The notes below the pieces were generated by a model. That model ran no database searches and had not been told where the DNA came from. It saw only the letters and a list, made by a program, of their open reading frames with translations. Below, piece by piece: positions 32,022-48,071 of a DNA stretch of 64,000 nucleotides (positions are counted from its first letter, which is position 1; each line of letters starts with the position of its first letter). Made by a program: the position numbers and the translations under genes. This DNA is from Bacteroidota bacterium (GTDB lineage Bacteria; Bacteroidota; Bacteroidia; Bacteroidales; JAAUTT01): NCBI GenBank assembly GCA_030706405.1, contig JAUZOO010000006.1, forward strand, positions 1 through 64,000. The letters are read 5' to 3'.

Positions 32022-33176
32022 ATGCCGATAGAAATTAAGAATATACAATCCATTAAAAAGAAGCAACAGGATAGTGTACCTCAAAATACAGTACTTACAA
32101 AAGTGGTCGGGCTGTTGAATAAGGATATTCGTCTGTGGGGGAAAAAGCTCAAGGATAGGAAAAAGGAAGGATTTTATTCGGAACTCCATGTTTTGCTATC
32201 GTCGGGCATTGACATACGGACGGCTTTGGACATTGTGGTTGAAGAACAAAAATCGGAGGAAGACCGAAAGCTTTTTACAGCAATTAAAACAGATGTTGTA
32301 GGCGGGGCCGGACTCTCGGATGCTATTTTCAAAACCGGAAATTTTTCGACTTATGAGTATTACAGCCTCAGGATTGGAGAGGAAAGCGGGCGCATAAAAG
32401 ATGTTTTGGCAGATCTTACTTTATTTTATTCAAAAAAGATTAAACAGCAGCGGCAGATAACCTCAGCCCTTACCTATCCGGTTATGGTACTTATAACTGC
32501 AATACTGGCAGTGCAGTTTATGCTTACGTTTATCGTACCAATGTTTATGGATGTGTTTAAACGGTTTAACGGAAAAATCCCGGCACTCACACAAGCAATC
32601 ATATCGGCATCGCAATTTATGAGGTCATATTCATGGTTACTCCTTTTAATTTTTGTTTCTGTGGTAGTAATGCTTATTTCCATCCGAAGGGAAGAATATT
32701 TCCGAAAATGGTCATCCGCCCTTATGCTTAAACTGCCACTATTTGGCGATATTGTTCAAAAGATCTACCTGTCGAGGTATTGCCAATCGATGACGTTATT
32801 ACTAGGAGCTAAAACCCCGATGCTCCGTTCTCTTGGACTTGTGAGACAGATGATAGGGTTTTACCCCTTCGAGAAGGCCATTGAAGTTATGGAAGACGAC
32901 ATTCTCCATGGCAAGTTACTACACCAGAGCATGGCTCGTTTTAGTTTTTTCGACACCCGCATTATCTCCCTCGTACGGGTGGCCGAAGAAGTTAATCAAC
33001 TGGAGAATATCTTTTCAAAACTAAATGCCCAATACAATGACGAACTCGAACATCGCATAGGCATGCTTAGCAGTCTGCTCGAACCGATTATGATTATCAT
33101 TGTTGGGGGATTGGTTGCTGTGATACTGATCGCCATGTACATGCCTTTATTTCAGTTAAGCTCGTCTGTTTATTAA
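32022..33176 (+). CDS. Inner-membrane platform protein GspF/PilC-like
   Basis: A 384-residue polytopic protein with two T2SSF domains. The first (residues ~45-165) begins FYSELHVLLSSGIDIRTALD, with transmembrane segments near 150-180 and 205-225. The second (~245-370) has LLGAKTPMLRSLGLVRQMIG and LHQSMARFSFFDTRIISLVR, ending in a third helix (IMIIIVGGLVAVILIAMYMP). This is the usual three-helix GspF topology. It ends the secretion operon. A 158-bp part of its second domain is duplicated 0.3 kb downstream. Confidence 0.88.
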   Translation: MPIEIKNIQSIKKKQQDSVPQNTVLTKVVGLLNKDIRLWGKKLKDRKKEGFYSELHVLLSSGIDIRTALDIVVEEQKSEEDRKLFTAIKTDVVGGAGLSDAIFKTGNFSTYEYYSLRIGEESGRIKDVLADLTLFYSKKIKQQRQITSALTYPVMVLITAILAVQFMLTFIVPMFMDVFKRFNGKIPALTQAIISASQFMRSYSWLLLLIFVSVVVMLISIRREEYFRKWSSALMLKLPLFGDIVQKIYLSRYCQSMTLLLGAKTPMLRSLGLVRQMIGFYPFEKAIEVMEDDILHGKLLHQSMARFSFFDTRIISLVRVAEEVNQLENIFSKLNAQYNDELEHRIGMLSSLLEPIMIIIVGGLVAVILIAMYMPLFQLSSSVY

Positions 33177-33324
33177 GAAGATTCAGAATATGCAATAAAT
33201 AACTAACCCTTAATCTCTCTATTATTATGAAACCTTTATTTTTAAAAATCATGCATTAAGTAGTACTATGATGATTTCAGTAGCCAATTCAATCCGAATC
33301 GTAAAACTTGAGCAAATTATTTAA

Positions 33325-33482
33325 TTGAAGTTATGGAAGACGACATTCTCCATGGCAAGTTACTAAACCAGAGCATGGCTCGTTTCAGTTTTTTCGACAT
33401 CCGCATTATCTCCCTCGTACGGGTGGCCGAAGAAGTTAACCAACTGGAGAATATCTTTTCAAAACTAAATACCCAATACAAT
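33325..33482 (+). repeat. Partial duplication of gspF 3' region
   Basis: This 158-bp segment repeats gspF 32881-33038 with five visible differences (about 97% identical), in the same orientation. It encodes MEDDILHGKLLNQSMARFSF... without a start of its own beyond an internal ATG. After 33482 the frame runs on into unrelated sequence to a stop at 33653, so the predicted chimeric 106-residue ORF is almost certainly not a real gene. Between gspF and the copy lies ~150 bp with no gene; a tiny ATG frame (MKPLFLKIMH) near 33227 may be a truncated leader. Confidence 0.85.
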
Positions 33483-33580
33483 AACCATCCTCTCTCTTAT
33501 GGTAAATGTAACTTTGTTTTCACAGATTATTTCAAATTAGATCGTAGAAGTTTTGCACAACTTGTAAGACAAGAAGAGTC

Positions 33581-33811
33581 AGCTCACAATACATCCACTT
33601 ATGATACCAGTAAGGTTTGGTACATACAAATTGCATACAACTTGGGTGAATAGATGAAATTGAAAGAAATAAAATGAAAATATTAGATAGTTTTTATGTT
33701 TAATTTTTAGATGGTTAGGACGTAAGATGATAATAGATGAAATGAGAAGAAAATACATTGATTGCGATTCATAATCATGAGGTCCCCAGTTCAATCCTGG
33801 GCCGCGCTACA
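33581..33811 (+). repeat. 231-bp inverted repeat, copy A (element end plus tRNA 3' core)
   Basis: This block is the reverse complement, with few differences, of 47841-48071. Positions 33761-33811 are the 3' part of a tRNA: anticodon loop GATTCATAATC (CAT), T-arm CCCAGTTCAATCCTGGG, acceptor end CCGCGCTA. The 5' half of the tRNA is absent; the left side is instead a non-tRNA arm containing TACATACAAATTGCATAC at 33621-33638. That is the structure of one end of a tRNA-integrated element. The arm side has no intact integrase. Confidence 0.75.
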
Positions 33812-33820
33812 AAAAGTAAA

Positions 33821-34809: not shown

Positions 34810-36675
34810 ATGCAGAATAATGTCAACGCCTCCGGAAATACGGAAACACCTTATAAAACAGCTAAAAATTGCCGTCATTATGCGATGTGCAAAATAGACT
34901 TTTTGGGTAGCGGGGTATGCACTTCGGGTTTGGAAAAACAATTCGTAAGTTACTATCCCCAAGGAAGGATGATACTTTATGAAGCACTTGCAGAGAATAA
35001 AATTTCTGTAACTAAAAAATGCGTGGAGATCGCTAACAGTTGTAATTTATGTGGTAAATGCGATTTGCAGTGTTACTTCATCAATGAGATGCGCCCTACG
35101 AAAGTTATGGAAGCATTGAAAAATCATGTGGAGACTTTTATTAAAAACGGTGGAAAAATTAAACCTCCAAAGGACGACAACCTACTTGCTGAAATACGAA
35201 AAATAGTTGGAGACAATTGGGCTACGAACGATGAAGCCATTACCGTAACCTATTCTCATGACGTTAGTCCGATTTCGGAACCTAAAATTCCAGATTATGT
35301 TGTCATGCCCAATACCAAAGAAGAGATTGCGTCTCTGGTGAAACTATTTAATAAAAATAATATTCCCTATACGATGCGTGGCAATGGTCAAAACCTTCTG
35401 GGCTTTGCTGTTCATGAAGGAGTCATTATGGATCTTAACCGGATGAAAACCATTGAATTTGACGAAAAGAACTGGCTGGTAAAAGTAGGCCCGGGAGTTT
35501 CAGCCTTTGACCTTCAAAAACAAGCACAGAAAAAAGGTTTTCGAATTAATGCCGGTGAACCCGCAGCGCTTATTTGTGCCAACATCATGTGTTCGGGAAT
35601 AATGTCCACTTTCTCTACAACCTATGGGATAAATGCGGACAATTTTATTGATGCTGAATTTATAGATAAGGACGGCGCTTTTTTTAATTTAAATGATGCC
35701 TCTTCGCCAAATCTTTATGCCTACCAAAACTTACAGCATAAAAATTCCCCGGGAATTTGTGTATCAGCCAGTATCCGGCTTCATCCGATGACGGAAGACG
35801 AAAGCGGCATTCTCGTGCCTTTCCAGACCCTTGACAGGGCGCTTGGCTTTATCAAGGACTGTGCAATAAGGCATATTGGACTGGCTTTAGGAATCGTGGG
35901 CGCTGAATATATTTCCGCTTTTCTTTCTCCTACGAAAGCAATGGCTTCTGACATAAAAGATATATTTATTCATAAATTAGACATCCCCTATCTGGTGGTG
36001 GTCATCGGAGATCGATTTGCAATACGAACGATTGATGAAATGGGGTTTCCTTACTTTGACCAACGACTATTTAATGCTCTTTATCTTGGATTGCCATCCC
36101 TAAAATCAGCTCAGTGGCTGAACCTTGTCAAAGAATTATCTGATGATGAACCATATTCATATTTACGAATTAAAAGTTTTGCAGATCTTCTTGAAACTGC
36201 GCTTTCGCCTTCCCCGGCTTTGTATTCGCAGGAAATTGATCCGGAACTAAGACCTTTTTTTGAAAGACTTTTCTTATTAGAGGAAATAACCGATTTGGTA
36301 TGGCTGAATATGTACCGGATAATGAGCACTCGTTTAGGTCGTAAAAAGCCTTTTTTACCTGTTCTTATTTATTTACCGATCGATCCTGTTTTGATTAATG
36401 ACCTAAAAGACAAGTTCAGACTTATTGCTGAAAAACATCAGATTGATAATGACATGGGGTTTATCACTCCGATCGATCACGGGAAAAGATGCATTTTTGA
36501 ATATGATTACTTCTTTGATTATAATGACCCTGACGAGATTAAACGGATACGACTGGCGGCAACCGAAGCCAATCGTTTAGTTGACGAGTATTCTATTAAA
36601 ACAGGTACAGTAAAAGGACATCCTTATGTATTGTACCAGGGATTTTGCCGAAAAGAAAACTTACTGTATTCATAA
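34810..36675 (+). CDS. FAD-linked oxidoreductase with N-terminal Fe-S domain (GlcD-like)
   Basis: A 621-residue fusion. The N terminus is cysteine-rich: Cys21, 27, 37, 71 and the ferredoxin-like CNLCGKCDLQC (Cys78, 81, 84, 88), suitable for one [4Fe-4S] cluster and perhaps more. Residues ~160-330 are a PCMH-type FAD-binding domain (DYVVMPNTKEEIASLVKLF, TMRGNGQNLLGFA, VKVGPGVSAFDLQKQA, CSGIMSTFSTTYG), as in glycolate/D-lactate dehydrogenases. The usual order (GlcD FAD domain first, Fe-S partner second) is inverted. The substrate cannot be told. It starts a four-gene cluster; the next gene overlaps its 3' end by 50 bp if the ATG at 36626 is used. Confidence 0.8.
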   Translation: MQNNVNASGNTETPYKTAKNCRHYAMCKIDFLGSGVCTSGLEKQFVSYYPQGRMILYEALAENKISVTKKCVEIANSCNLCGKCDLQCYFINEMRPTKVMEALKNHVETFIKNGGKIKPPKDDNLLAEIRKIVGDNWATNDEAITVTYSHDVSPISEPKIPDYVVMPNTKEEIASLVKLFNKNNIPYTMRGNGQNLLGFAVHEGVIMDLNRMKTIEFDEKNWLVKVGPGVSAFDLQKQAQKKGFRINAGEPAALICANIMCSGIMSTFSTTYGINADNFIDAEFIDKDGAFFNLNDASSPNLYAYQNLQHKNSPGICVSASIRLHPMTEDESGILVPFQTLDRALGFIKDCAIRHIGLALGIVGAEYISAFLSPTKAMASDIKDIFIHKLDIPYLVVVIGDRFAIRTIDEMGFPYFDQRLFNALYLGLPSLKSAQWLNLVKELSDDEPYSYLRIKSFADLLETALSPSPALYSQEIDPELRPFFERLFLLEEITDLVWLNMYRIMSTRLGRKKPFLPVLIYLPIDPVLINDLKDKFRLIAEKHQIDNDMGFITPIDHGKRCIFEYDYFFDYNDPDEIKRIRLAATEANRLVDEYSIKTGTVKGHPYVLYQGFCRKENLLYS

Positions 36676-37882
36676 TTCAAATCCTAGAATCTTGACAGTC
36701 AAAAATAAACCGACTATAGCCTTAACCGGCGCAACTGGTTTTTTAGGCAGCCACCTAATGGCATCGATGCTTTCATGTGGATATAAGATCATCATACTGG
36801 GCCGTCGGACAAAAGAGGAAACGTTGCAGGAAAGGATTTCCAGACTTTTACAATGGTTTGGGATTGAGGAGTTGACGGGTCAATTAGAATTGGTGGAAAT
36901 AGATTTTTTAAAGCCTATGCTGGGCTTGCCGGAAGCTGAATATAAAAAACTCTGTTTAAATACTGAACAGATTATACATTGCGCTTCAGATACCAGTTTT
37001 GCAGAACGTAAGCGGGATATCGTTTTCAAAACCAATGTTACCAGTTTGGAGGGTATTCTGGAATTTGCCGCCAATGCCCATGTAACTTTCTTGCATTATA
37101 TAAGCACCGCATACGTCGCAGGGGCTAATGGTACGATATGTCAGGAATGCATCCCCTGTGCCAGTGATTTTTTCAATGTATATGAAGAAAGTAAAGCCAG
37201 GGCTGAAAATATGATTTACTCCTTTTGCAAAAAAGAATCAATTCCCTTTACCATAATCCGCCCATCGATAGTGTATGGCGATTCCCGCACAGGACGCTCT
37301 CTTAAATTTAATGCCTTATATTTTCCATTACAATCCTTAATGTATATCCGGGAAATCTATCTGAACGATATACAAAATCATGGAGGCTTAAAATCAAACC
37401 CACATGGAATATTTATCGATAAAGAAGGTTACCTACATTTACCTCTTCGGATATATTTGCCCCAAGAGGGCGCCCTTAACCTTATCCCAGTGGATTATTT
37501 TGTGAATGCCACCATGAAAATAATTGTAAATGCATCCCCCGGTGAAATTTATCATTTGACCAATAACTCGCCTACAACGCTTGAAGGTATTTCCGCCTAC
37601 AATGAAAGATTTATGAAGATCAAAGGTGTGGAGATTATTTATGCTAAATCAGCAGACAATGTATTACGCAATCCGGCAGAAGAACTGTTTGATCGTTTTG
37701 TTGAACCATACCGGCTTTATTTATCGGACAACAGAATTTTCAACAGGGTTAATACTGATTTAGTTACAGATAATTTTTATCCACCTGAATTTACTTATGA
37801 GATATTCAAAAACTGTATGGAATATGCCATTCGGGTAAACTGGGGCGAATCGATTTTTGTAGAAGAACATAGGGAAAGTTGA
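36626..37882 (+). CDS. Thioester-reductase-like SDR (NAD-binding)
   Basis: A 418-residue extended short-chain dehydrogenase. The Rossmann motif TGATGFLGSHL is at residues 34-44; LQERISRLLQWFG and QIIHCASDTSFAERKRDIVF ... TNVTSLEGILEFA match the thioester reductase/male-sterility (NAD_binding_4) family, as does the catalytic YEESK. Such enzymes reduce thioester-bound acyl groups to aldehydes or alcohols. The start is uncertain: ATG 36626 overlaps the previous gene by 50 bp and adds ~25 residues before the core; a TTG at 36692 is the alternative. Confidence 0.75.
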   Translation: MYCTRDFAEKKTYCIHNSNPRILTVKNKPTIALTGATGFLGSHLMASMLSCGYKIIILGRRTKEETLQERISRLLQWFGIEELTGQLELVEIDFLKPMLGLPEAEYKKLCLNTEQIIHCASDTSFAERKRDIVFKTNVTSLEGILEFAANAHVTFLHYISTAYVAGANGTICQECIPCASDFFNVYEESKARAENMIYSFCKKESIPFTIIRPSIVYGDSRTGRSLKFNALYFPLQSLMYIREIYLNDIQNHGGLKSNPHGIFIDKEGYLHLPLRIYLPQEGALNLIPVDYFVNATMKIIVNASPGEIYHLTNNSPTTLEGISAYNERFMKIKGVEIIYAKSADNVLRNPAEELFDRFVEPYRLYLSDNRIFNRVNTDLVTDNFYPPEFTYEIFKNCMEYAIRVNWGESIFVEEHRES

Positions 37883-37899
37883 CCTTTTAATGTAAAATT

Positions 37900-39453
37900 A
37901 TGGCTAAGGTATTGCTTATTAACTCCAATAGATTCAAGCACCCATGGCCTGTCATACCTTTCGGACTTTGTTGTATAGCAACTGTCCTGGAGACGAATGG
38001 AAATCACAATGTTCATTTCCTCGATTTATGTTTCTCTTTAAACTGTGCAGAAGATATCCGAAAGACTGTGCGAAACTTTATGCCTGATGTCATTGGCATA
38101 ACGGTAAGAAATATTGATGACACAGGAGGCTTTAATGTCCACTTTTTATTAGATGATGTCAAAAAGGATGTTATCGATTATTGTAAAAAAGAATTTTCCG
38201 GACCTATTGTTATTGGAGGGCCTTCGGTAGGGATAAATGGTAGGGAGATGCTTGATTTTTTTGACCTTGAATATGCAGTACGAGGAGACGGTGAAGCCGT
38301 GATGCTCGAATTTGCAAACCGCATTGCAAACCAGCAACCTCTGGAAGGTTTGAAAGGCTTGATTATTCGCCAGGAAAAGGTCATCGTTCAGGACATGGAG
38401 CCTTTTCGCGTGCAGGATCTGGACTCACTTCCATTTCCAAAACCACAACGCTATTTGAATCTCGGCCATTATCGCCGTTTTGGATCTCCTATCCAGATAC
38501 AGACCAAGCGGGGTTGTACTTTAAAGTGTTCGTATTGCACGTATAACAAAATTGAGGGGAAGCAATATCGCTTAATAGATCCAAAGCGCGTGGCGAATGA
38601 AATTGAAATTCTTGTTAAAGAAACGGGCATCAATCACGTTGAATTTGCTGACAGCATTTTTAATGTACCTCTTTTTCATGCAAAGGAGGTATTGAGAGAA
38701 GTCATCAGAAAAAATCTTGATCTTAGGCTGCATACTATGGGACTTTCACCTGCGGCGGTGGACGAAGAACTTCTGGATCTCATGAAAAGGGCTGGTTTTA
38801 ATGAAGTGGATATTGGTGCCGAGTCTATGTGTGATGTAGTTCTGGAAAGCCTTGCCAAAAATTTTAAACGGGCGGATGTCCTAAACACTGCAAATTTGCT
38901 AAAGAAGAAAAAGATACCAGTCACCTGGTTTATTATGCTTGGTGCGCCGTCTGAAACACGTGAAACTGTGCTTGAAACCCTGAATACAATAGGCAGCGTT
39001 GCTTCCAAATGGGATTTGGTTTTCATATCCACAGGAGTACGCGTTTACAATGAGTCCTCCCTTGCACAAGAAATTCTGAAACGTAATATCCATGGTACGA
39101 TGGACAATTTTTTGCATCCGGTAAAAATTGAACCTAACGAAATTGCCTTGGAAGATATCCGTGCTATTACAAAACGATACTCATTTCGATTCCCCAACTT
39201 TTATTTTTACGAGAAAGAGCGTATCATTCCCGGATGGCTCCTTATCACTGGCAATTTTGTGTTAAAGATGTTCCGTTCCCGACAGCCTGTTTGGCGTTTA
39301 CTCATTCTTTTAAAAAGGATTGAGTGGATTTTTGGAATAGGCTTGATAAAAAGAAGAAAATATGAACTAAACATGAATTCTTATAAAAGGGAAAGTCAAA
39401 AAAATAATGGTTTTTCTCTTATCCGGCATCCCAAAATCACATCCGACAACTAA
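37900..39453 (+). CDS. B12-binding radical SAM enzyme
   Basis: A 517-residue protein. The N-terminal ~130 residues are a cobalamin-binding fold (KVLLINSNRFKHPWPVIPFG ... VIGITVRNIDD ... GGPSVGINGREMLDF). The radical SAM core begins near residue 190 with the CxxxCxxC motif in RGCTLKCSYCTY. Later strands fit the family (DIGAESMCDVVLESLAKNF, TWFIMLGAPSETRETV). This class includes methyltransferases, ring-forming enzymes and other radical catalysts; the product cannot be deduced. The gene follows the SDR by 17 bp and precedes a methyltransferase by 5 bp. Confidence 0.85.
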   Translation: MAKVLLINSNRFKHPWPVIPFGLCCIATVLETNGNHNVHFLDLCFSLNCAEDIRKTVRNFMPDVIGITVRNIDDTGGFNVHFLLDDVKKDVIDYCKKEFSGPIVIGGPSVGINGREMLDFFDLEYAVRGDGEAVMLEFANRIANQQPLEGLKGLIIRQEKVIVQDMEPFRVQDLDSLPFPKPQRYLNLGHYRRFGSPIQIQTKRGCTLKCSYCTYNKIEGKQYRLIDPKRVANEIEILVKETGINHVEFADSIFNVPLFHAKEVLREVIRKNLDLRLHTMGLSPAAVDEELLDLMKRAGFNEVDIGAESMCDVVLESLAKNFKRADVLNTANLLKKKKIPVTWFIMLGAPSETRETVLETLNTIGSVASKWDLVFISTGVRVYNESSLAQEILKRNIHGTMDNFLHPVKIEPNEIALEDIRAITKRYSFRFPNFYFYEKERIIPGWLLITGNFVLKMFRSRQPVWRLLILLKRIEWIFGIGLIKRRKYELNMNSYKRESQKNNGFSLIRHPKITSDN

Positions 39454-39458
39454 GCAAA

Positions 39459-40277
39459 ATGAAAAAAGTTTCAGACGAAACCTACAGTCTTATCAATAAC
39501 GACATTTATGATATCGAAGGAGATCGATGGTGGCATCCAGACTTCTCGCTTAATTTAATAAGAACATTATATAATCCTTTCAGGGTAAATTACGCAAAAA
39601 AAATAATTAACCAACTGAAAGTTAATCCGGCTAAAACAAAGGTACTGGAAGTTGGTTGTGGAGGAGGGATATTCATTGAAGATATCGCAAAAATGGGGCT
39701 TATAACTACCGGAATTGACCCCTCAGAGCAATCGTTAAACATTGCCATACAACACGCTAAAGAAAATAACCTTACCATTAAATATGAGAAAGGGATAGGC
39801 GAAAATCTCCCCTTTCAAAACAATGCTTTCGATATCGTTTTTTGTTGCGATGTGCTGGAGCATGTTCGCGATTTACCAAAAGTGATTTCTGAAATTTCAC
39901 GTGTCCTGAAAAACGGAGGTATCTTTATTTATGACACATTTAATCGCACCTATTTCAGCAAAATAAGCATCATCAAAATACTACAGGAATGGAAACGATG
40001 GGCCATCATGCCTCCGAACCTTCATGTTTGGAAAATGTTCATCAAACCCGATGAAATAAGGTTTTTATTACGAAAAAACCAATTGGATTGGAAAGAACAC
40101 CGAGGAATAAAGCCCGATATTTCCTATCTAAAAATGCTTCGTTATCTCCACCAAAGAGCAGTCGGAGAACTGACTTATGTAGAATTTGGCAAAAAATTCC
40201 GCATGGTCGAAAGCAAGAGCACTCAAATCATGTACATGGGATATGCGATTAAAAACAATAATTCGAAAAATACCTGA
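39459..40277 (+). CDS. SAM-dependent methyltransferase, UbiG-like
   Basis: A 272-residue class I methyltransferase. Motif I is VLEVGCGGGIFIEDIAKMG (residues ~65-83), then GIDPSEQSLNIA; motif II region is FDIVFCCDVLEHVRDLPKVI, and LKNGGIFIYDTFNRT gives motif III. The overall pattern is of UbiG-type O-methyltransferases. UbiG itself is expected in ubiquinone makers, whereas Bacteroidota use menaquinone, so a role in this cluster's own product is more likely. It is the last gene of the cluster. Confidence 0.8.
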   Translation: MKKVSDETYSLINNDIYDIEGDRWWHPDFSLNLIRTLYNPFRVNYAKKIINQLKVNPAKTKVLEVGCGGGIFIEDIAKMGLITTGIDPSEQSLNIAIQHAKENNLTIKYEKGIGENLPFQNNAFDIVFCCDVLEHVRDLPKVISEISRVLKNGGIFIYDTFNRTYFSKISIIKILQEWKRWAIMPPNLHVWKMFIKPDEIRFLLRKNQLDWKEHRGIKPDISYLKMLRYLHQRAVGELTYVEFGKKFRMVESKSTQIMYMGYAIKNNNSKNT

Positions 40278-40304: not shown

Positions 40305-40360
40305 ACAAGCGCAATTAAGTACATATAAATCAACTTTATAAGTACTATATTATTGACTTA

Positions 40361-40407
40361 TAGCGCGACCTAAGATTAAACCTGGGACCTCATGATTATC
40401 AATCGCA
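40361..40407 (-). repeat. Degenerate tRNA 3' attachment core C
   Basis: On the minus strand this reads TGCGATTGATAATCATGAGG, then a T-arm-like segment, then TCGCGCTA. It matches cores A and B with several substitutions (for example GATAAT for CATAAT). Its minus-strand downstream side also resembles the terminator and TGCATAC region that follows core A, so A and C are diverged inverted repeats flanking the four-gene biosynthetic cluster. With core B (same strand) it brackets the oxidative-stress islet as direct repeats. Confidence 0.65.
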
Positions 40408-40539
40408 AATGGTTTATTTTTGACATTTCCAAGTCACTGTATTTTAGCGATTAATGAAAATGCAAGCCAATAGTATAAGCAAAGTGTATTTTCCAGTTGG
40501 CTATGTTCTAAACTGAATATGTAAGTAATATATTTATGC

Positions 40540-47527: not shown

Positions 47528-47840
47528 CGTGTGTGTTAAATCTTTTAGATAAATAGTTTGAAAAGTCTAAATTAAGAACTAACAAAGAGATAAATGTTAC
47601 ACAACTTTTCTGAAAAGTTACATCATTCACACCTCATCGGTCGCATGTACAATTCTTTCAATTTGGTTGGCGATAAAGAATAGAATCTATAAACCCGCTT
47701 GCGATTGCACTATTCGGCATATCTGGCTGGATGCAGTTATAGTTTAAGTCCCAGGTTATTCGTAAATTTATTGAAATGGTCAGTCTGCACAGAATTTACA
47801 GTCCTATATATTAGGTCTCTTGAATGAACCAAAACTTTTT
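47528..47840. other. Upstream region of the stress operon, with a palindrome
   Basis: No gene. The minus-strand operon promoter should lie here. A palindrome, AACTTTTCTGAAAAGTT, is at 47603-47619, 76 bp upstream of the SOD start. On either side are GTTAC/GTAAC motifs (ATGTTAC at 47594-47600 and GTTACAT at 47617-47623). The rest, up to the 231-bp repeat, has no recognisable signal. Confidence 0.5.
47603..47619. promoter_or_regulatory. Candidate operator upstream of the stress genes
   Basis: Eight-base arms AACTTTTC and GAAAAGTT surround a single T. The site does not match the classic OxyR or PerR consensus. Its position upstream of SOD, ferritin and catalase genes suggests a redox- or iron-responsive regulator. 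Confidence 0.4.
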
Positions 47841-48071
47841 GTAGCGCGGCCCAGGATTGAACTGGGGACCTCATGATTATGAATCGCAATCAAAGTATTT
47901 TCTTCTCATTTCATCTATTATCATCTTATGTCTTAACCATCTAAAAATTAAGCATAAGGACTATCTAATATTTTCATGTTATTTCTTTCAATTTCATCTT
48001 TTCTCCCAAGTTGTATGCATTTTGTATGTACCAAACCTTACTGGTATCATCATTGGATGTATTGTGATCTG
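47841..48071 (-). repeat. 231-bp inverted repeat, copy B (element end plus tRNA 3' core)
   Basis: Reverse complement of copy A (33581-33811) with about 20 differences or fewer by eye. The tRNA 3' core is at 47841-47890 and reads, on the minus strand, GATTCATAATCATGAGGTCC, then the T-arm and CCGCGCTA. The arm-type site is at 48013-48030. As in copy A, the tRNA 5' half is missing. The two copies face each other about 14 kb apart. Confidence 0.75.

Follow-up and report, generated by a model that had tools for sequence, protein, structure and literature searches.

What might a B12-binding radical S-adenosylmethionine (SAM) enzyme, here rSAM, do in an operon with an iron-sulfur (Fe-S)/flavin adenine dinucleotide (FAD) enzyme, a thioester reductase (TR) and a UbiG-like methyltransferase (MT)? 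The question is raised by positions 34810-40277 of a stretch of 64,000 nucleotides from a Bacteroidota bacterium (assembly GCA_030706405.1, contig JAUZOO010000006.1, positions 1 to 64,000), which we refer to in its entirety as the window. The answer that we prefer, at slightly less than an even chance, is that the operon is a horizontally mobile anaerobic biosynthetic set whose enzymes tailor an acyl thioester and then release it, the compound being most likely an unusual long-chain or polyketide-type lipid. The literature searched assigns no product to the gene set, in agreement with an earlier, sequence-only reading of the window, and the combination of these known enzyme families was found documented nowhere in that literature.

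Gene content of the operon

The operon consists of 4 intact open reading frames (ORFs), all on the + strand and in the order FAD-TR-rSAM-MT, where FAD denotes the gene for the Fe-S/FAD enzyme (SDR, short-chain dehydrogenase/reductase; VAO, vanillyl-alcohol oxidase):

34810..36675, + strand: Fe-S/FAD oxidoreductase of 621 amino acids with a Cys-rich N-terminal domain and a VAO/GlcD-type FAD domain (FAD_binding_4)
36692..37882 (TTG start; alternative ATG at 36626), + strand: stand-alone SDR-type thioester (acyl) reductase (NAD_binding_4, TIGR01746)
37900..39453, + strand: B12-binding radical SAM enzyme with a TsrM-like fold and a CxxxCxxC motif (Radical_SAM and B12-binding; AlphaFold2/Foldseek)
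39459..40277, + strand: UbiG-like class I SAM methyltransferase (NCBIfam UbiG, PDB 4kdc)

The Pfam E-values were 6e-25 for FAD_binding_4, 2e-42 for NAD_binding_4, 3e-22 for Radical_SAM, 1e-8 for B12-binding, and 3e-26 for Methyltransf_11. The TR gene probably starts at the TTG at 36692, because its relatives begin about 22 codons downstream of the ATG at 36626, from which the gene would overlap the FAD gene by 50 nt. With the TTG start, the spacers are 16 nt between FAD and TR, 17 nt between TR and rSAM, and 5 nt between rSAM and MT, and the description of the 4 genes as close-packed and co-directional holds.

Co-conservation of the gene set

When genome contigs were scanned for the rSAM protein, relatives were identified chiefly in metagenome-assembled genomes (MAGs) of Bacteroidales from fens and lakes. 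The same four-gene order was observed in about 10 of these MAGs, which are nearly all of those with long enough contigs. The Bacteroidales loci have their flanking genes (GltX, TatD, ThiF, Nramp, creatininase and GH2) in common, whereas the window operon has none of these beside it, and since they share this neighbourhood, the Bacteroidales MAGs amount to about 1 observation rather than 10. Independent evidence was provided by L002 and the order to which its genome belongs, and by L043 together with L012.

The same set was recovered in a different order, MT-FAD-TR-rSAM, at locus L002 in a proteobacterial MAG. Within the order to which this genome belongs, the FAD gene was present in 10 of 141 genomes, and MT-FAD-TR were adjacent in L002 and in 7 of the 9 other FAD-positive genomes (L079-L083, L085, L087). 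Of the remaining loci, L084 contained MT-FAD without an adjacent TR gene, and L086 contained FAD-TR without MT. At L043, the genes FAD-TR-MT stood alone, and the rSAM gene of that genome was located on a separate contig (L012). In the more distant genomes, L044-L047, only FAD and TR were adjacent. Thus, as the sequence-only reading had supposed, the 4 genes are a co-conserved unit, of which MT-FAD-TR is the core.

The rSAM gene is an exchangeable partner of this core, being either of the window type, a relative of 35% identity (L041, L079, L081), or not found in the region read (L080, L082, L083, L087). The proteins of L002 were identical to those of the window at 78% of the positions for rSAM, and at 61%, 48%, and 60% for FAD, TR, and MT, respectively. 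In the phylogenies, L002 was placed inside the group of window and Bacteroidales sequences in the rSAM tree and outside it in the FAD tree; it derives from a MAG in which contamination is possible, and the same genome contains pieces (L041, L042) of a second cluster, which is G790-like. The earlier proposal of a single four-enzyme pathway is therefore supported as far as the co-conservation of the set is concerned, but the exchangeability of rSAM does not suit a rigid four-step route.

It was also noted that a methyltransferase is fused to a D-Ala-D-Ala-ligase-like ATP-grasp domain in 2 of the distant loci, which are from related genomes (L045:2143-4338 and L046:3578-5584). The fusion gene is located two genes upstream of FAD-TR and possibly replaces a separate MT. 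A gene for RNA 3'-phosphate cyclase adjoins TR in L082, L083, and L087, which we took to be a lineage neighbour rather than a member of the pathway. Both L086 and L087 have 2 ORFs in place of a single FAD gene, one for the Fe-S/N-terminal part and one for the FAD part, owing to a frameshift, a sequencing error or a true fission.

Horizontal transfer

The amino acid sequence identity of the Fe-S/FAD enzyme was 78% to 84% between the window and the Bacteroidales copies, and 77% to 96% among the latter. For the housekeeping protein GltX, the corresponding values were 55% to 64% and 80% to 96%. The discordance between the two proteins indicates that the window copy of the operon was gained by horizontal transfer. 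The rSAM gene was absent from all 4 genomes of the same genus, and at E<=1e-40 the FAD gene was identified in only 1 of 395 genomes sampled in the phylum, which was the window's own genome. The base composition was unremarkable, and no match was obtained for carriage of the operon on a plasmid. No clean empty site was identified in the same-genus genomes, among which only G003 contained the pilC-like gene of the left flank (62% identity), with an unrelated right side.

The 4 enzymes

The rSAM protein matched PF02310 and PF04055 above the cut-offs and contained the CxxxCxxC motif, as expected for a radical SAM enzyme with a Rossmann-type cobalamin-binding domain. Its AlphaFold2 model had a mean predicted local distance difference test score of 90, and the top Foldseek matches were the structures of the tryptophan C2-methyltransferase TsrM (6wte/6wtf; E 1e-33, template modelling score 0.70-0.71), followed by MgmA, CysS, OxsB, AprD4, and TokK. 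In TsrM, Arg69 is located beneath the cobalamin and Glu273 fills the cluster site of SAM binding (PMC8992657; PMC13331322), so that SAM coordination is blocked by this residue (PMC8992657). In a profile alignment, Arg69 corresponded to Arg70 in the cobalamin cap loop of the window protein, and Arg was present at this site in all of the 21 rSAM proteins compared. Glu273 corresponded to position 253 in a 'DSxFN' motif, where all 21 contained Ile, Thr, or Val (Ile in the window) and none contained Glu. Because the equivalent of Arg69 is kept and the blocking Glu273 is absent, the enzyme is predicted to hold an Arg-capped, base-off cobalamin and a cluster that is free for SAM, and to perform ordinary radical methylation. 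It differs from TsrM also in that there is no thiopeptide context.

The Fe-S/FAD enzyme was assigned to the VAO/p-cresol methylhydroxylase flavoproteins by its FAD_binding_4 domain (88.1 bits, gathering threshold 26.4) and by its fold. The AlphaFold2 model (predicted template modelling score 0.80) matched vanillyl-alcohol, eugenol, and 4-ethylphenol oxidases, p-cresol methylhydroxylase, and D-lactate dehydrogenases, at sequence identities of 14% to 17%. No second Pfam domain was matched, and the Cys-rich N-terminal domain is an addition to the family. In this domain, Cys 21, 27, 37, 78, 81, 84, and 88 (C78xxC81xxC84xxxC88) were kept in all 18 homologs, down to an identity of 43%. The 7 invariant cysteines suggest that the enzyme holds 1 or 2 iron-sulfur clusters, their number being a deduction from the cysteine pattern, and hence that it transfers electrons. 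It is accordingly better read as a putative electron-transferring dehydrogenase or reductase than as the oxidase that had been proposed.

The TR protein was classified as an NAD(P)-dependent, SDR-type thioester/acyl reductase, with a score of 145.6 bits to PF07993 (gathering threshold 20.1). The GxxGxxG motif, the S/T and the YEE[S/T]K motif, which provide the S/T-Y-K catalytic residues, were present in 21 of 21 homologs, one of which was trimmed at the start in the alignment. The closest solved structure was the MxaA thioester reductase (4u7w, E 1e-32). The MT protein scored 141.3 bits to the NCBIfam model for UbiG, above the cut-off of 103 bits, and its closest solved structure was UbiG (4kdc, E 3e-35). 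Unlike UbiG, it is a constant partner of FAD-TR and not of a ubiquinone operon.

Proposed chemistry and substrate

In the reading that we prefer, rSAM would first C-methylate an unactivated carbon of an acyl chain. TR would then reduce the thioester and so free an aldehyde or alcohol from acyl carrier protein (ACP) or CoA, the Fe-S/FAD enzyme would dehydrogenate or reduce the substrate, with electrons passing via iron-sulfur clusters and not to O2, and the UbiG-like enzyme would finally O-methylate a hydroxyl. The substrate, the order of the steps and the product are what we infer from these enzyme families and their neighbours.

A lipid is favoured because of the nearest named family of rSAM, the ketosynthase and ACP neighbours of its paralogs, an MsbA-like exporter and a Pfa-like synthase. 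The best NCBIfam match of rSAM was TIGR04072 'lipid biosynthesis' (280.8 bits), whereas the TsrM family model scored 164 bits. TIGR04072 (rSAM_ladder_B12), which presumably covers kuste2803 and its kin, has the same B12 and radical SAM architecture; the window gene differs in lacking adjoining genes for type II fatty acid synthesis and in having MT, FAD/Fe-S, and TR as partners. The B12 radical SAM protein kuste2803 has been proposed to act in ladderane synthesis and is located with FabF, an ACP synthase, and FabB (PMC2649909, PMC4790861). Paralogous rSAM genes in the order to which the window belongs are located beside the C-terminus of a ketosynthase, an ACP, and an LpxL-like acyltransferase. 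Such paralogs were observed in L021, L023, and L024; in L023 and L024 they follow the ketosynthase, ACP, and LpxL-like acyltransferase genes, and are directly followed by a conserved protein of 138-151 amino acids, with no Pfam match for the L024 copy.

At L081, a gene for an MsbA-like exporter was located between TR and rSAM. In L084/L095 (G731 C4), about 3 kb separates MT-FAD from a divergently oriented Pfa-like synthase, which comprises a ketosynthase (KS), an acyltransferase, 5 ACP and a ketoreductase domain, 2 KS together with 3 FabA domains, and a PfaD-like protein; an acyl-CoA dehydrogenase and a thiolase are also encoded at this locus. Pfa-like Type I clusters are known from Geobacter (PMC3098273), the text of which does not mention a thioester reductase, a methyltransferase or a radical SAM enzyme. 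The window differs in having no synthase, and most MT-FAD-TR loci have none nearby. The use of a thioester reductase is shared with the heterocyst glycolipid (hgl) islands, in which it is combined with a Pfa/polyketide synthase-like synthase and an ABC exporter to yield released lipids (PMC11804610); no radical SAM enzyme appears in the parts of that text covered by our search. These islands are cyanobacterial, and the window operon contains no hgl-type synthase.

Several observations weigh against a lipid substrate or limit the support for it. The rSAM protein of the window misses the TIGR04072 cut-off of 360 bits, as do the partner rSAM proteins of L079 and L081 (320 and 333 bits), and TR scored 113.8 bits to TIGR01746, under the cut-off of 213 bits. 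No gene for a carrier protein, synthase or ligase is located in or adjoining the operon, which bears out the earlier statement that carrier and synthase are missing. The exporter and the Pfa-like neighbour are single cases, and the Bacteroidales loci are not mutually independent. Finally, two of the enzymes lean towards aromatic substrates: phenol and benzyl-alcohol oxidases are the best fold matches of the FAD model, and the nearest relative of MT is UbiG.

These last similarities are the basis for an alternative that we consider possible but not probable, namely that the thioester on which the operon acts is phenolic or aryl. MT would then O-methylate a catechol or phenol, a TsrM/CysS-like rSAM would C-methylate the ring or methoxy group of a carrier-bound aryl acid, TR would free an aryl aldehyde, and the VAO-like enzyme would oxidize or reduce the benzylic position. 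The fold matches of rSAM fit this scheme as well, with TsrM, a C-methylase of indole, as the nearest, followed by MgmA and by CysS, which has been solved with a pantetheinylated methoxy substrate. However, the matches of the FAD model are too distant in sequence to fix its substrate, the cluster contains no aryl-CoA ligase or shikimate-type gene, and the rSAM paralogs accompany fatty-acyl and ketosynthase genes. The earlier suggestion of an existing lipid or acyl-CoA as the substrate is plausible yet unproven, and an aryl thioester suits the VAO-like fold and the UbiG kinship about equally well.

A pathway to ether lipids of the plasmalogen type, in which TR would yield a fatty alcohol as a fatty acyl reductase, with an FAD enzyme that acts like alkyl-dihydroxyacetone-phosphate synthase (AGPS), is very unlikely. 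AGPS belongs to the same FAD fold family and gave weak profile matches (E 7e-7 to 3e-4), and the TR profile also matches the fatty acyl-CoA reductase 7eoz. However, AGPS did not appear in the top 50 fold matches of the FAD model, and this reading was demoted after the fold search. AGPS is not known to have a counterpart to the invariant Cys-rich N-terminal domain, and the operon contains no dihydroxyacetone-phosphate acyltransferase. We also regard as improbable a catabolic role, in which the enzymes would degrade or detoxify some compound that occurs in the environment of wet and anoxic peat and sediment. Such a role would suit the patchy, mobile distribution over fen and lake MAGs and a minority of one order, but the combination of a B12 radical SAM enzyme, a methyltransferase and an enzyme of reductive release is characteristic of anabolism, and no transporter, hydrolase or regulator accompanies the set.

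Returning to the acyl-tailoring set that we prefer, the analysis identifies a rare mobile module of MT, Fe-S/FAD, and TR, which may or may not include a B12 radical SAM enzyme, common to anaerobic Bacteroidota and another phylum. It represents an rSAM clade tied to fatty-acyl machinery, the nearest named family of which has been proposed, not proven, to act in ladderane-type lipid synthesis, and the small size of the four-gene system makes it suited to testing the role of this clade. The residue pattern of rSAM, with an Arg cap as in TsrM but no blocking Glu, provides a clear mechanistic prediction. A further, more speculative idea, which we hold to be rather doubtful, is that the module makes an uncharacterized class of specialized anaerobic lipids. 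A TsrM-fold B12 enzyme with an Arg cap and an open SAM site would C-methylate an acyl chain, which would then undergo reductive release, redox adjustment by the Fe-S/FAD enzyme, and O-methylation, and the exchange of the B12 enzyme from lineage to lineage would diversify the product.

Repeats flanking the operon

Three tRNA-like repeats, near which no integrase was noted, are located on the two sides of the operon:

33760..33814, + strand: 55-nt repeat resembling a tRNA 3' end, a possible attachment site (att) remnant, left of the operon; exact inverted partner at 47837
40358..40420, - strand: tRNA-like repeat, a 79% copy, inverted, right of the operon
47837..47891, - strand: 55-nt repeat identical to the left copy but inverted, about 14 kb from it

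No intact tRNA gene was identified by ARAGORN within the window. The sequence-only reading had taken the position of the cluster between attachment cores to be consistent with horizontal gain. The gain itself is shown by the discordance between FAD and GltX, and the repeats exist, but their inverted orientation makes them weak support for an insertion. We therefore rejected them as proof of an insertion that they delimit, since the exact copies are inverted and do not by themselves define an inserted element.

The preceding gene on the left flank is pilC-like, of the inner-membrane type found in type II secretion and type IV pilus systems. A 162-nt piece of this gene (source 32880-33041) is repeated with 96% identity a short way downstream at 33324-33485, which gives rise to a pseudo-ORF at 33333-33653, and this duplication may mark a recombination event.

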